From the NCBI GenBank assembly GCA_905480225.1, contig CAJQPO010000021.1, positions 1 through 57,446 of the forward strand: a DNA stretch of 57,446 nucleotides. The letters run 5' to 3'. The notes beneath the pieces are model-generated. The model ran no database searches. It was not told the origin of the DNA and was given only the letters and a program-made list of their open reading frames with translations. Below, one piece after another: positions 9,264 through 30,825 of the stretch (position 1 is the first letter of the stretch; each line of letters starts with the position of its first letter). This DNA is from an uncultured Flavobacteriales bacterium (GTDB taxonomy: Bacteria > Bacteroidota > Bacteroidia > Flavobacteriales_D > Parvicellaceae). A program made the translations under genes and the position numbers.

Positions 9264-10349
9264 TTGAACGAGATAGTGAAAAAGTCAAAAAGAACAAGGT
9301 CTATTTTAGTGTTGATGATTACTGGTATAGTCGCATTGAGTTCGATTTTTTTGTACCCTTATTATACTCTTTATAAAGCCGGTAATTTAGAAAACATCAC
9401 TGGTGATTCGGATCAGTTAAGCATATTTATCTCTGAAAAGATTCAATTTAAAGACCTGGGCGTGTATATGAAAAATAACGGTTGGATTCGAGATGACGTT
9501 AGTTTCAATAAAGTGATAAAGCACAAAGACAAAGGTAATGAGTGGATACTTCCAGGGATTCAGTTGATAAGGAAAGAATGGGATAACAAAACATTGGTAA
9601 ACCAGTTGTATCTGGGGCGCAATTTAGGAGAAGTTGAAATTACCTTCAATCACGTGCGTTTGAAGAATGAGCTGGCCGAAAGGATGTGTTCTCTTGTTTC
9701 AGCGTCAAAAGAGGAATTCGAAGCGTTATTGAATGATTCCCAATTTTGTAGTCAATATGGCTTCAACAATGAGACGATCATGACCATGTTTTTACCTGAT
9801 ACATATCGAGTTAAATACGATATGACTGCCAAAGAATTGTTTGACCGAATGGCACAGGAATATAAAAAGTTTTGGACCGAATCTAATTTGGCAAAAGCAA
9901 AATCAGTTGGTTTGTCACAAAGTGAAACTTCTATTTTGGCTTCATTGGTACAGGCTGAACAAAGTAGAAAAGTTGATGAGCAACCCATAATAGCTGGCTT
10001 ATACCTCAATAGATTAAGTCAAGGCATGCGTTTAGAGAGCGACCCTACTTTAGTGTTTGCTCATGGTGACTTTACAATTACATGGGTTAAGAATGAGCAC
10101 AAAGAAATTATTTCTCCTTATAATACATATCTCAATGCCGGCTTGCCACCTGGACCGATTAATCTACCCGAAAAATCAGCGATAATCAGCGTGTTGAATC
10201 CTGCCCGTCACGATTACATTTTCATGTGTGCAAAACCAGAGACGGGTGGCTATCATAATTTCGCTAAAACCTATAATCAGCATCTAGTCTATGCAAGACA
10301 ATACCAAAAATGGAACCGAGAGTTCCATAGAAATAAGGATTCGAATTAA
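9264..10349 (+). CDS. mltG: endolytic murein transglycosylase MltG
   Basis: MltG cleaves nascent glycan strands in the inner membrane and so sets strand length. A basic cytoplasmic tail (KKSKRTR, residues 6-12) is followed by one membrane span (about 13-33), a LysM-like segment, and the YceG catalytic domain. The catalytic Glu is E232 (SLVQAEQSRKVDEQP), and the AGLYLNRLSQGMRLESDPT and YNTYLNAGLPPGPI motifs are present. The start is TTG 9264, three bases after the previous stop. The next ATG (9315) would remove the basic tail and begin inside the membrane span, so TTG is preferred. Length 361 fits the family. The gene closes the run and converges on a minus-strand lipoprotein gene. Confidence 0.95.
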   Translation: MNEIVKKSKRTRSILVLMITGIVALSSIFLYPYYTLYKAGNLENITGDSDQLSIFISEKIQFKDLGVYMKNNGWIRDDVSFNKVIKHKDKGNEWILPGIQLIRKEWDNKTLVNQLYLGRNLGEVEITFNHVRLKNELAERMCSLVSASKEEFEALLNDSQFCSQYGFNNETIMTMFLPDTYRVKYDMTAKELFDRMAQEYKKFWTESNLAKAKSVGLSQSETSILASLVQAEQSRKVDEQPIIAGLYLNRLSQGMRLESDPTLVFAHGDFTITWVKNEHKEIISPYNTYLNAGLPPGPINLPEKSAIISVLNPARHDYIFMCAKPETGGYHNFAKTYNQHLVYARQYQKWNREFHRNKDSN

Positions 10350-10362
10350 GGCAGTTTATACC

Positions 10363-11493
10363 TTACTCTTGAATGTATAAACACATATTTGCCATGCCGG
10401 TATGGACGGTTGTGGAATCGCAACAGTTGTAGTACGAACGTAAAGCATATTGATGATTTTTTTCAAGATAAATTTCCAATTCATTTGTGTATTCTATAGC
10501 TGATAGCCCTATTCTGTTTGGATAATTTGATGCACCCAGTTCATGTATTTTTTGGTTTTCGGACAAGTCCCACAATTCTAATCTTTCAGCATATGGATGC
10601 ATGTGGCTTCCAGCAGCAACCACGACACTGTTTTTCGTTAGGTTCAGCATATTGGTAATATTGGTTGTCCAGACTTCATTATTATTGCTTAAATTCCAGT
10701 GTCCCGTGTACGTTCTTCCGTAATCATCAACATATGGATTGTATTTTGCATTTGGGGGATAAGAGATGTGACAAGAACTGCTAGAATCAATACCGCAAAT
10801 TAGGGTAGGGCTATACAAATCATCATTAGGGACATTGAAACCACCTGCAGGTCCGCCGATTTGTGTTGTTACAAATGGTGTTTGTGGGTAAAGAGCCTTT
10901 ATTTCTTTGGGGACACAATTATTTCGATAAAAGAAAATGGTAATTTCTTGATAGGTGTCTATGTTGATGGGCAAAGTGTTATGATTCAAAGCCTGAGAAA
11001 AGAATGCTAAATTGTTCGGTGTATAAATTGGTATGCCAGTTCCTTTAGGCAAAGTAATGCTTGTTTGGCCTGAAGTAAGTGTGAAAATTCTTTTTTCGCT
11101 TCCTAAAGTTTTGATGTCCCAAGGATATGATTCCGGCTCACCGTAATTCAAATTGTTGTGGCATAAATAGTCGTCCAAAATTTGCTGGTTATTCCTAGCA
11201 TTGAAAACTTTACATTGGTATCCAGTCAGCCAAATCACCTTATCTTTGATGTCTGATAAATCGACAAGAGTGAAGGCACTATAAGGTCCTCTCATAGATC
11301 GATAAATTGTGTCGATTTTTAATAAATCGGATTTAACAACTACTGAATCTAATCTTGGTTCAAAGGTGACTTTAGAATTTGATAAGTTCTGCTTTTGCCA
11401 ATCTTCAAAGTCTGGCTTATTATCAATATCAGAGCAACCCACAATGGCTATTGCAAAAAGAAAGAAAATAAAATAATTAAGCATGTACAACAA
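10363..11493 (-). CDS. lipoprotein resembling copper type II monooxygenases (PHM/DBM-like)
   Basis: The 376-residue product starts with a lipoprotein signal: hydrophobic residues 6-17, lipobox AIVGC with Cys20. The body is beta-rich. Late in the protein SHMHPYAERLELWD carries a His-x-His pair (H297, H299). The C-terminus, HTGMANMCLYI, has M370 in a context like the Met-Cys element that supplies the CuB methionine of peptidylglycine and dopamine monooxygenases. Earlier, YLCHNNL (H112) and SQALNHNT (H171) sit where the CuA histidines would be expected. This is my motif reading, not a search result. The protein would be anchored on the periplasmic or outer surface. There is no obvious electron donor or partner gene nearby. 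An internal ATG nine bases in (11484) is an alternative start. Confidence 0.6.
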   Translation of the reverse strand: MLYMLNYFIFFLFAIAIVGCSDIDNKPDFEDWQKQNLSNSKVTFEPRLDSVVVKSDLLKIDTIYRSMRGPYSAFTLVDLSDIKDKVIWLTGYQCKVFNARNNQQILDDYLCHNNLNYGEPESYPWDIKTLGSEKRIFTLTSGQTSITLPKGTGIPIYTPNNLAFFSQALNHNTLPINIDTYQEITIFFYRNNCVPKEIKALYPQTPFVTTQIGGPAGGFNVPNDDLYSPTLICGIDSSSSCHISYPPNAKYNPYVDDYGRTYTGHWNLSNNNEVWTTNITNMLNLTKNSVVVAAGSHMHPYAERLELWDLSENQKIHELGASNYPNRIGLSAIEYTNELEIYLEKNHQYALRSYYNCCDSTTVHTGMANMCLYIQE

Positions 11494-11548: not shown

Positions 11549-12442
11549 TTATAGGTTACTGTTGATGAAATTTACAATTTCGGTTTGGCTTGAAGCATTA
11601 AACCAATGTATTTCAGTGTCTTTTTTGAACCAGGTCATTTGTCGTTTAGCAAACCTGCGTGTATTCATCTTTATTTTTTCAATAGCTTTTTCTAGGCTAC
11701 ACTGGCCCTCAAAGAACTCGAATAACTCTCTATATCCAACTGTTTGAAGCGCATTTAAGTGTTTTTTTGACTGAAGATTTTGTACTTCACTTACAAGTCC
11801 AGATTCTATCATCTGATCTACTCTTCGATTAATTCGAGCATAAATAATTTCACGTTTTTCATATAGACCTATTTTAATGATGTTGAAGGGTCTTGTCAAC
11901 TTAGGTTTTGTTCTAAAAGATGAATAGGTCTTACCTGTTAATCTGCAAACTTCAACGGCCCGAATTAATCTTTGTGGATTGTCAATGTCCATTAGCTGAT
12001 AATGAATAGGATCCGCATTTTTTAGCTCATCTTGCAATTTCTTGAGACCATTTTTTTTGTAATCCGAAATTACCTCTTGCCGAATTTCATCATTGGATGG
12101 GATGTTATCAATTCCATTGTGAACCGCATTAATGTATAACCCAGAGCCACCAGTTAGTATTGCTAAATTGTTATTCAAATATAGTTGGTCGAGTATGCCT
12201 AAAACATGCTGTTCAAATTTCCCAACAGAGAACGATTCGTCCACGGAAAGAAAGTCAATCAAGTGATGACGAATACCTCTCATTTCATTTTCTGTTGGCT
12301 TTGCCGTTCCAACCGACATTTCCTGATAGAATTGTCTAGAATCTGCCGAAATTATTTCGCAATTAAATTGCTGTGCTATTTCAACCGCCAATTTAGTTTT
12401 TCCAATGGCTGTTGGGCCTACTATTGAAATTAGGTGATTCAA
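11549..12442 (-). CDS. miaA: tRNA dimethylallyltransferase
   Basis: MiaA transfers a dimethylallyl group to A37 of tRNAs reading UNN codons. The P-loop GPTAIGKT is at residues 9-16. It is followed by the ISADSRQFYQEMSVGTAKP segment, which holds the tRNA-contacting Asp and substrate-channel residues. Later landmarks are HHLIDF, TGGSGLYINAV, and a C-terminal QTVGYRELFEFFEG with the RRFAKRQMTWFK element. Length 297 is normal. The start is TTG 12442, placed directly after the TAA of the upstream MBL hydrolase gene. No ATG gives a complete P-loop strand, so TTG is real. Co-transcription with the hydrolase is likely. Confidence 0.96.
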   Translation of the reverse strand: MNHLISIVGPTAIGKTKLAVEIAQQFNCEIISADSRQFYQEMSVGTAKPTENEMRGIRHHLIDFLSVDESFSVGKFEQHVLGILDQLYLNNNLAILTGGSGLYINAVHNGIDNIPSNDEIRQEVISDYKKNGLKKLQDELKNADPIHYQLMDIDNPQRLIRAVEVCRLTGKTYSSFRTKPKLTRPFNIIKIGLYEKREIIYARINRRVDQMIESGLVSEVQNLQSKKHLNALQTVGYRELFEFFEGQCSLEKAIEKIKMNTRRFAKRQMTWFKKDTEIHWFNASSQTEIVNFINSNL

Positions 12443-14987: not shown

Positions 14988-17129
14988 ATGGCAGACGAGA
15001 AAAAAATCGCTAAAAACGAAGAAGCGAAATCAGAAAAGGTGCAAGAAGTAGCCGCAGAAGCACCAAGTCAAGTTGCGGAAAAAGAAATTTCAGAAGAAAC
15101 CCCTAACGAAAAAGAGGCACCAGAAGTTGTTGTTGAAGAAGCGACAGCGGAATCTGTAGTAGCGGAAGATGCACCAGAAGCTGTTGTTGAAGAGGCGACA
15201 GCGGAATCTGTAGTAGCGGAAGAAGCTCCAGAAGTTGTTGTTGAAGAGACGACAGCAGAACCTGTAGTAGCAGAAGAAGCTCCAGAAGTTGTTGTTGAAG
15301 AAGCAACAGCAGAAGCTGAGTCAGAGGAAGAACCTGTAATATTGGCTGAAGCACCAGCAGATGAAAATGTTGCCCCAGAGGATTTTGATTGGGATGCTTT
15401 TGAAGCTGGAATTGAAGGATATTCAAAAGAAGACATCGTGAAATACGATGAGATGTACGATGGTACGCTTACATCTATAACAGAAAAAGAAGTAGTGAGT
15501 GGATCTGTTGTTGCAATTACCAAAAAAGAAGTAGTTGTTAATATAGGATACAAGTCTGAAGGTGTAGTACCAATTAACGAGTTCAGATATAATCCTGAAC
15601 TTAAGATAGGAGACCCTGTAGATCTTTTTATTGAAAAACAGGAAGATAAAACAGGACAATTAGTCGTATCGCATAAAAGAGCAAGAACTCACAAGGCTTG
15701 GGATAGAGTTAATGAAGTTTTAAAAACTGGAGAAGTAATTACTGGATTTGTTAAATGCAGAACAAAAGGTGGTTTAATTGCTGATGTTTTTGGAATAGAA
15801 GCATTTTTGCCGGGCTCACAAATTGATGTTAAGCCAATAAGGGATTACGATTTATATGTTGGAAAGAACATGGAGTTCAAGGTGGTTAAAATAAACCATG
15901 AATTTAGAAATGTAGTTGTTTCGCACAAAGCATTGATTGAAGCTGAACTTGAGCAACAAAAGAAACTAATCATTGGAACGCTTGAAAAAGGTCAAGTTCT
16001 TGAAGGAACTGTTAAAAACATCACATCATACGGTGTATTTATTGATCTTGGTGGTGTAGATGGACTTGTTCATATTACAGATCTTTCTTGGGGTAGAGTG
16101 AATCATCCAGAGGAAATTGTTGAACTAGATCAAAAATTGAATGTGGTTATTCTGGATTTTGATAATGACAAGAAAAGGATAGCATTAGGCTTAAAACAAT
16201 TACAGGAGCATCCTTGGGAAGCACTTCAAACAGAACTAAAAGTAGGTGATTCTGTCAAAGGTAAAGTAGTTGTAATTGCTGATTATGGTGCTTTCATTGA
16301 GATTGCACCTGGAGTGGAAGGATTGGTACATGTTTCCGAAATGAGCTGGTCACAGCATTTAAGAAGTGCACAAGATTTCTTGAAAGTTGGAGATGAAGTG
16401 GAAACGCAAGTATTAACTTTAGACAGAGAAGAAAGAAAAATGTCCTTAGGAATTAAGCAACTTATGCCAGATCCTTGGGCTGAAATCGAATCAAAGTATC
16501 CAATTGAATCTAAGCATAAAGCGAGAGTTAAAAACTTTACAAATTTTGGTGTGTTTGTTGAGCTAGAAGAAGGTATTGATGGATTAATTCACATATCTGA
16601 CCTTTCTTGGGCCAAAAAAATCAAGCACCCATCAGAGTTTTGTAATGTCGACGACGAATTAGATGTTCTTGTATTGGAACTTGATAAAGAAGGACGTAGA
16701 TTGTCTCTAGGTCATAAACAACTTGAAGAGAATCCATGGGATGTTTTCGAGTCTGTTTTTGTTGATGGTTCTGTGCATCAAGGTACAGTAATTAAACTTC
16801 AAGATAAGACTGGAATTATTTCTTTGCCTTATGGCGTTGAAGGATATGCACCGGCTAAACACATGAAAAAGGAGGACGGTTCAAAAGTTGAGGCAGAAGA
16901 TGTACTTGATTTTAAAGTGTTAGAGTTCAATAAAGATTCGAAAAAAATCATTGTTTCTCACACATTAACCTACTCTAATGAAGTTGAAAGTGGAGGAAGT
17001 AAGAAGAAGAAAGATGGTGGAGGTGCTTCAAAGGCAGTGAAAGATTTAAATTCTAAGCAAGAGAAAACAACGCTTGGTGATTTAGATGCATTGTCTGCTT
17101 TAAAAGAGAAAATGGAAAAAGGTAAATAA
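14988..17129 (+). CDS. rpsA: 30S ribosomal protein S1 with acidic repeat extension
   Basis: S1 binds mRNA on the 30S subunit. Six S1-type OB repeats are visible between about residues 155 and 660. Examples are VKNITSYGVFIDLGGVDGLVHI, VVVIADYGAFIEIAPGVEGLVHV and VKNFTNFGVFVELEEGIDGLIHI; the first, second and sixth are more divergent. The C-terminus is basic and low-complexity (KKKKDGGG) and ends in a short helix. What is unusual is the N-terminal arm of about 140 residues made largely of Glu, Ala, Val and Pro, including an 18-residue repeat in about 3.7 copies. The protein is therefore 713 residues, against about 560-600 for a typical S1. In a phylum that largely lacks Shine-Dalgarno sequences, S1 variation may bear on start-site choice; that is inference. 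A strong terminator follows. Confidence 0.96.
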   Translation: MADEKKIAKNEEAKSEKVQEVAAEAPSQVAEKEISEETPNEKEAPEVVVEEATAESVVAEDAPEAVVEEATAESVVAEEAPEVVVEETTAEPVVAEEAPEVVVEEATAEAESEEEPVILAEAPADENVAPEDFDWDAFEAGIEGYSKEDIVKYDEMYDGTLTSITEKEVVSGSVVAITKKEVVVNIGYKSEGVVPINEFRYNPELKIGDPVDLFIEKQEDKTGQLVVSHKRARTHKAWDRVNEVLKTGEVITGFVKCRTKGGLIADVFGIEAFLPGSQIDVKPIRDYDLYVGKNMEFKVVKINHEFRNVVVSHKALIEAELEQQKKLIIGTLEKGQVLEGTVKNITSYGVFIDLGGVDGLVHITDLSWGRVNHPEEIVELDQKLNVVILDFDNDKKRIALGLKQLQEHPWEALQTELKVGDSVKGKVVVIADYGAFIEIAPGVEGLVHVSEMSWSQHLRSAQDFLKVGDEVETQVLTLDREERKMSLGIKQLMPDPWAEIESKYPIESKHKARVKNFTNFGVFVELEEGIDGLIHISDLSWAKKIKHPSEFCNVDDELDVLVLELDKEGRRLSLGHKQLEENPWDVFESVFVDGSVHQGTVIKLQDKTGIISLPYGVEGYAPAKHMKKEDGSKVEAEDVLDFKVLEFNKDSKKIIVSHTLTYSNEVESGGSKKKKDGGGASKAVKDLNSKQEKTTLGDLDALSALKEKMEKGK
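15117..15317 (+). repeat. 54-bp in-frame tandem repeat in rpsA, about 3.7 copies
   Basis: Three full units (15117-15170, 15171-15224, 15225-15278) and a partial fourth encode APE-x-VVEE-x-TAE-x-VVAE-x. The units are nearly identical at DNA level, differing at a few positions, which suggests recent duplication or slippage. The repeat keeps the reading frame and creates long antisense open frames that are not genes. Confidence 0.92.
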
Positions 17130-30442: not shown

Positions 30443-30444
30443 CA

Positions 30445-30820
30445 ATGCAAACTGGCTTATCGCGTTATGAAGTAAATTTTTAATGAGGAAAGTCCGGGCA
30501 GCAAAGAGCAACATACTTCCTAACGGGAAGGGGCTTATTGAATATTCAATAAGTTACAGATAGTGCCACAGAGAATAGACTGCCTATGTTGAGTTTTCTC
30601 AACAGGCGAGCGTGAAACGGTGAGGTAAGAGCTCACCAGTACAATTGGTGACAATTGTAGCTAGGTAAACCTTATGTGCTGAAAAACCAAATATACCAGG
30701 GCTTGAAGATTGCTCGTTTGATCCTGGAGGGTAGGTTGCTTGAGGTTATCAGTAATGGTAATCCTAGATAAATGATAAGCATTTCGAAAGAAAAACAGAA
30801 CCCGGCTTATAGGTTTGTGT
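30445..30820 (+). ncRNA. rnpB: RNase P RNA (class A)
   Basis: The catalytic RNA of RNase P, which trims the 5' leader from tRNA precursors. The conserved block GAGGAAAGTCCGGGC lies at 30485-30499 and its partner ACAGAACCCGGC at 30795-30806. The outer P1 helix can be drawn by pairing 30445-30453 with 30812-30820. The internal GAGCGTGAAACGGTGAGGTAAGAGCTCACC region is also typical. No protein frame of any length crosses it. A TAnnTTTG box is directly upstream and a terminator stem follows. End points are set by P1 and may be off by a few bases. Confidence 0.95.
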
Positions 30821-30825
30821 AAAAT

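Follow-up and report, generated by a model that had tools for sequence, protein, structure and literature searches.

A predicted PHM-fold protein family of Bacteroidota with CuM ligands retained and CuH histidines replaced

The closest described counterparts of the protein considered here are the copper monooxygenases PHM (peptidylglycine alpha-hydroxylating monooxygenase) and DBH (dopamine beta-hydroxylase), with which animals produce peptide hormones and noradrenaline. In the accessible text of the structural studies, the CuH ligands are given as H107, H108 and H172 in PHM (PMC6123673) and as H262, H263 and H333 in DBH, where the CuM methionine is M487 (PMC4846438). The rat PHM mutants H107A, H108A and H172A are each inactive, and whether the two coppers of PHM come together or stay apart is disputed (PMC6123673). 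Closed one-copper structures have been described for both enzymes: in 6ALA, which is H108A-PHM with citrate, H107 joins the CuM copper together with H242 and H244 and M314 has left it (PMC6123673), and chain A of the DBH structure 4ZEL also has this form (PMC4846438). The wider fold clan is described as having PNGase F for its bacterial and PHM for its eukaryotic branch (PMC8812541).

Here, we analyse a gene carried on 57,446 nucleotides of DNA from an uncultured Flavobacteriales bacterium (GCA_905480225.1, contig CAJQPO010000021.1; this whole stretch is called the window). A preliminary description had taken its product for a lipoprotein remotely similar to the PHM/DBM copper monooxygenases and possibly a secreted two-copper oxygenase. 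The features discussed below are as follows, in residue order; domain boundaries are approximate.

10363..11493, minus strand: gene for the PHM-fold protein, an open frame of 376 amino acids with its stop at 10363-10365
11434..11436, minus strand: C20, putative lipidated cysteine at the end of a lipobox-like AIVGC, recognised by eye
10879..11364, minus strand: N-terminal jelly roll of the model, about residues 44-205, corresponding to the CuH domain
11158..11163, minus strand: C111-H112, at the place of PHM H107-H108 (CuH), aligned to HH through the outgroup protein L016
10993..10995, minus strand: Q167, at the place of PHM H172 (CuH) in the truncated-model register and several profile alignments
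10981..10983, minus strand: H171, earlier CuA candidate, out of register with PHM
10711..10878, minus strand: interdomain insertion relative to PHM, about residues 206-261, modelled at low confidence
10771..10773, minus strand: C241, within the insertion, likely disulfide partner of C111, in 53/53 rows
10366..10710, minus strand: C-terminal jelly roll of the model, about residues 262-376, corresponding to the CuM domain
10699..10701, minus strand: H265 of the family GHW motif, in 53/53 rows
10597..10605, minus strand: H297-M-H299, CuM histidine pair (PHM H242/H244, DBH H412/H414), from profile alignments and conservation
10393..10395, minus strand: M367, CuM methionine (PHM M314, DBH M487), from structural pairing and conservation
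10384..10386, minus strand: M370, earlier methionine candidate, at PHM position 317 by structural pairing

The open frame is a real gene. Compared with an ortholog of 82% identity (L002), it shows purifying selection (dN 0.092, dS 0.685, Nei-Gojobori), with 39, 25 and 117 differences at the three codon positions. The preliminary description had placed the feature correctly and given no strand; its residue numbers fit when the count begins at the TTG at 11493 on the minus strand, which puts H112 in LCHNN, H171 in LNHN, H297 and H299 in SHMHPYAE and M370 in GMANMCLYI. Translation more likely begins at residue 4, an ATG at 11484. The N-terminus has the look of a lipoprotein, as had been proposed, with a signal peptide, lipobox and cysteine (AIVGC20) recognised by eye only; several relatives have a lipobox-like motif, and others an N-terminal membrane anchor without a clear lipobox. 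On either side of the gene are what we take, from reading the sequence, to be mltG, on the plus strand at 9264-10349, and miaA, on the minus strand at 11549-12442; both also border it in two congeners. Elsewhere in the window, about four copies of a 54-base repeat (15112-15332) occur early in a gene for a ribosomal protein S1-like product (14988-17129), whose N-terminal part they make acidic and rich in valine. At the gathering threshold, Rfam matched a single element, a class A RNase P RNA at 30444-30825 (RF00010, 263.7 bits), and ARAGORN found no tRNA in the window.

An AlphaFold2 model of the protein (pLDDT 77.5, pTM 0.79) was built from seven aligned sequences taken from the window or related loci, so that its domain orientation is weakly supported. 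In a Foldseek search with this model, the best 29 rows were all PHM or DBH (E 2.3e-8 to 2.1e-6). VIA-align gave Z 17.2 for PHM 6ALA_A (3.3 A over 233 residues, 9% identity) and Z 16.9 for DBH 4ZEL_A (3.4 A over 248 residues), followed by the remaining PHM entries (Z 15.3 down to 12.4, 4.1-5.9 A) and, as the next fold, PNGase F (Z 8.9). The two-domain PHM/DBH jelly roll is thus a well-supported prediction, and the earlier guess of a PHM/DBM-like protein is borne out: structure prediction, the check that had been proposed, returned this fold and not another. Most of the insertion has a pLDDT under 60, and Q167 and H297 are 130 residues apart, compared with 70 between H172 and H242 of PHM.

Conservation was read from an alignment of 53 rows, the window protein and 52 open reading frames, among them three duplicates and five fragments or repeats of fragments; profile work used 48 rows, leaving out the five fragments or fragment repeats and one duplicate. 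The CuM side of the protein appears complete. H297 is kept in all 53 rows and H299 in 52, the remaining row having X, and the pair aligns with H242/H244 of PHM, as the preliminary description had supposed for its CuB histidines. The methionine it had chosen fared otherwise. Model residue 376, at the end of the structural alignment, pairs with PHM 323 and DBH 496, which, assuming a gapless last strand, sets M367 on PHM M314 and DBH M487; M367 is methionine in 52/52 rows with a readable letter. M370 falls at PHM position 317 and is replaced by leucine in four of 52 rows with a letter (methionine in 48), and was rejected as a copper ligand. These correspondences are supported by a comparison of the 48-row profile with ten bacterial PHM-like proteins, rat PHM and human DBH, in which the HxH and the methionine were matched: the local score was 39.3 against 20.2 for the best of 40 decoys (one reversed, 39 column-shuffled), and the global score 28.4 against 7.5. 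The His-x-His and methionine of the PHM/DBH monooxygenases are therefore represented by H297, H299 and M367.

The CuH side is different. C111 and H112, each present in 49/49 rows with a letter, align with the HH of L016 (E 1.5e-6 and 2.9e-8), whose HH aligns in turn with that of the PHM-like set (E 1.8e-5); a fragment of L016 kin in genome G810 also has LHHF. Pairing of CH directly with HH is seen in one global alignment (E 0.63) and not in two other comparisons: the N-domain alone scores poorly (E 0.026 and 0.27) and does not place CH on HH, and in the deepest global profile alignment (48 rows) CH is off HH and Q167 is off H172. For the third ligand, the register was read from a separate fold of residues 41-170 (pLDDT 77.8). 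Seven of the 50 matches listed for this truncated model are PHM entries, and in each of them residue 170 sits on PHM 175; this places Q167 at H172 and H171 at PHM 176, in a weak match (Z 6.4) tied with unrelated sandwiches. Three profile alignments likewise pair Q167 with the ligand histidine of bacterial PHM-like proteins. Of the 51 rows with a letter at position 167, 40 read Q and the other 11 read E. H171 is histidine in 36 of 51, with L, V, Q or D in 14 and X in one, and both register and conservation led us to reject it as a ligand; of the two CuA candidates proposed earlier, only the invariant H112 stands at the CuH place. No register gives three conserved histidines, the residues being C111, H112 and Q or E167. 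Judged from these alignments, a canonical CuH site is absent family-wide, C-H and Q/E replacing the H-H and H of PHM.

Other residues are equally invariant. W266 accompanies H265 in all 53 rows, whereas the residue aligned with H265 is Q in the PHM-like reference L035 and no histidine in L016. H265 precedes H297 by 32 residues, and spacing and alignment put it on a strand that lines the substrate cleft in PHM. The substrate residues of peptide-amidating PHM, R240 and N316, are not kept: the R240 place holds G (5), A (3) or S (2) and no R in a ten-row alignment, and the N316 place holds N in just 3/52 rows. C111 and C241 co-occur in 49/49 rows covering both, 13 of which have no further cysteine past residue 45, and the outgroup L016 has no cysteine. 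Although cysteine-count parity (33 rows even, 16 odd) does not decide the matter, two invariant cysteines in an exported protein are most simply read as a disulfide, and a C111-C241 bond is the most likely interpretation of the sequences.

The two best structural matches, 6ALA_A and 4ZEL_A, are both closed one-copper structures. The PHM H107A structure with citrate, 5WJA_D, not described as closed, is fairly near (Z 15.3, 4.1 A), and the other PHM entries range from Z 12.4 to 14.3 at 4.8-5.9 A; Foldseek TM scores are 0.47-0.49 for 6ALA, 0.49 for 4ZEL_A, 0.41 for 4ZEL_B and 0.35-0.44 for the remaining PHM rows. The model thus resembles closed one-copper PHM/DBH more than the open forms, a likeness that suggests closure and is not strong evidence of it. 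Since C111 corresponds to H107, which joins CuM in closed PHM, a further, rather improbable arrangement is that the protein is permanently closed, with C111, H297, H299 and M367 forming a Cys-His2-Met copper centre beside a substrate cleft still present. If true, this would be a blue-copper ligand set on an oxygenase scaffold, in a natural one-copper relative of PHM; in the closed H108A mutant, though, M314 is off the copper.

Counting the window's own genome throughout, a protein query found members in 3/60 close relatives. A six-row alignment query found them in at least 3/399 genomes of the order and, at E 0.001, in at least 5/395 genomes of the phylum, counts that are lower bounds because this query was less sensitive than a ten-row alignment; the five include G413, the source of outgroup L016, and G237, whose match (E 7.3e-4) covers profile positions 8-136 only and was set aside as chance. 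The ten-row query gave 16/295 genomes and 13/156 genera of the class, and 23/199 genomes of one genus. The window's genome carries a second copy (L006; G000 C97:17423-18442), about 30% identical and without a clear lipobox, which has V at the H171 place and shares C111, H112, Q167, C241, H265, H297, H299 and M367. Genome G1005 has two family copies about 1 kb apart (L057 and L059), the second matched only from profile position 123 on.

Neighbourhoods were compared for 32 loci, 31 of them with a family member, and no conserved partner gene was found across genera, in agreement with the earlier statement that no partner is known. No electron-donor domain or recurring donor neighbour was seen, and inspection of the 31 by eye did not reveal a copper-handling gene that recurs beside the family. 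A repeat-linked cluster of large exported proteins recurs across groups in six loci: within 263 bases in four (4, 118, 181 and 263), upstream or downstream and on either strand, and 3.4 and 4.4 kb away in two. We read these neighbours as generic, a weak lead at most and not a partner. Three-locus clusters without constant position comprise helicases, regulators, a phosphoesterase, S1, transporters and an acyl-CoA enzyme (named by eye). Seven loci of one genus share an acyltransferase-like gene, a MoxR-like ATPase and others, which is ordinary synteny, and the window has none of these neighbours.

Catalogued models do not recognise the family. The profile check suggested earlier, with the PHM/DBM Pfam models, gave no match of PF01082 or PF03712 to the window protein, and neither model was listed for the 19 family proteins scanned, among them the window protein (scanned twice), or for L016; PF03712 was also not found in the window's genome. 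No convincing Pfam model was obtained for the window protein and five relatives, three further members, ten divergent members or L016, and three members and L016 had no NCBIfam match at E 0.01. Several hits were dismissed as chance: for the window protein, TED_complement in Pfam (0.088), LA3241 in NCBIfam (0.0018, 18.2 bits against a cut-off of 350) and arsenite oxidase in a PDB sequence search (2.1); three weak Pfam models, each in single members; and the PDB sequence matches of L016. A further PDB sequence search gave none. A shallow profile comparison with PHM-like proteins was weak (E 0.011), and deeper ones worked. No account of this family was found in a literature search of listings and abstract openings that mostly covered sources outside subscription.

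The explanation that we favour, and to which we assign about an even chance, is an exported, anchored PHM-fold protein with CuM intact and CuH lost, acting as a one-copper oxygenase or oxidase. Its copper and its activity we infer from a predicted fold, residue correspondences and an invariance that computation supports. The protein would be extracytoplasmic and membrane-anchored, with the PHM/DBH fold, keeping the complete catalytic CuM site (H297, H299 and M367) and not the electron-transfer CuH site. One copper would be bound where the two domains meet, closed over it as in one-copper PHM/DBH, and would activate oxygen, or peroxide, on a substrate that we leave unspecified. Electrons would come from an outside reductant instead of a second copper, the putative C111-C241 disulfide would hold the insertion against what was once the CuH site, and the pocket would be lined by H112 and H265.

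The same invariance allows a second metal site to have been rebuilt from H112, Q/E167, H265 and perhaps C111 or C241, giving a two-metal oxygenase with an unusual electron-transfer site. This is a real, if somewhat unlikely, rival, and draws on a conservation that exceeds what a dead site would require, with H112, H265, C111 and C241 invariant and 167 always Q or E, and on the placement of H265, 32 residues before H297, on what spacing and alignment suggest is the cleft-lining strand. It has to contend with the Q of the PHM-like reference and the lack of a histidine in L016 at the H265 position, with the location of C241 in an insertion, and with the simpler reading of two invariant cysteines in an exported protein as a disulfide. 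As rat PHM without CuH is inactive (PMC6123673), loss of this site could equally mean that oxygenase activity was lost, and a copper-binding, non-catalytic protein, whose CuM ligands would store, carry or sense copper in the periplasm or at the surface, is for that reason a real, if unlikely, rival. Strict retention of the CuM ligands with CuH gone fits such a role, as does the want of a donor domain or recurring donor neighbour, whereas the ten PHM-like proteins examined from the phylum carry a cytochrome-c-type motif; the fixed H112, H265 and position 167 would, however, be unneeded, and no recurring copper-handling neighbour was recognised by eye in 31 loci.

A metal-free double jelly roll, such as a hydrolase resembling PNGase F or a protein for adhesion or glycan binding, is very improbable. 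PNGase F-type entries do come next after PHM/DBH (Z 8.4-8.9), and carbohydrate enzymes are found within the wider fold (PMC8812541), but their Z is about half that of PHM/DBH and the invariance of exactly the CuM ligands would go unexplained. That the protein is a canonical two-copper oxygenase, in which H112 and H171 serve CuA/CuH and M370 serves CuB/CuM, is scarcely credible. H112 is invariant, H171 is histidine in 36/51 rows, and both profile alignments with L016 place H171, not Q167, on the histidine of its LHN; that histidine, however, is off the ligand position in the PHM-profile alignment, H171 gives way to L, V, Q or D in 14/51 rows and registers with PHM 176, not 172, and M370 is L in 4/52 at PHM 317. 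Since neither H171 nor M370 is supported as a ligand, the two-copper part of the earlier proposal loses its support, and its exported, anchored character remains. A natural family in which CuM is strict and the CuH histidines are absent offers a ready-made way to test what purpose the second copper serves and whether a closed form with one copper can function.

Compared with known systems, the window protein shares with rat PHM (PF01082/PF03712) a double jelly roll over model residues 44-376 and the CuM H-x-H and methionine in matching places. It differs in its low identity (about 9% in the structural alignment), in having no Pfam match, in its membrane anchor, in the change of CuH H107/H108/H172 to C111/H112/Q167, and in an insertion of about 60 residues with C241, plus the GHW motif. 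With human DBH (4ZEL) it shares the catalytic core fold (Z 16.9) and M367 on M487, the model being nearer to the closed chain A (TM 0.49) than to chain B (0.41); it has no DOMON domain, and His262/263/333 of CuH are not kept.

Bacterial PHM-like proteins are known from the same phylum, where PF03712 exceeds its cut-off in 15/148 sampled genomes. The ten examined (L026-L035) carry an N-terminal cytochrome-c-type motif, CxxCH in eight and CX4CH in two, and all six ligands of complete CuH and CuM sites; L028 ends in a secretion sorting tail (Pfam). The window family resembles them in being bacterial, in its H-x-H and EM sites and in being remotely alignable, and differs in lacking the three CuH histidines and the CxxCH/CX4CH motif; five genomes with such cytochrome-motif proteins gave no member of it. 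The L016-type protein of G413, with fragments in G810, matches over 265 profile columns (E 2.9e-8) and shares HLHP and GGM, but keeps HH, has no cysteine and has V or M at the place of the third CuH histidine. This rare relative (L016:1354-2379, minus strand; L024, L025) occurs in 2/244 genomes of its class, in one of them in pieces. The double jelly-roll proteins of the PNGase F and GH172 type, which are not known to have copper ligands, share the overall architecture at lower structural scores (Z 5.4-8.9; PNGase F is listed at 8.4-8.9, below PHM/DBH). To the PNGase F/PHM fold clan, the window family adds an uncatalogued exported branch.
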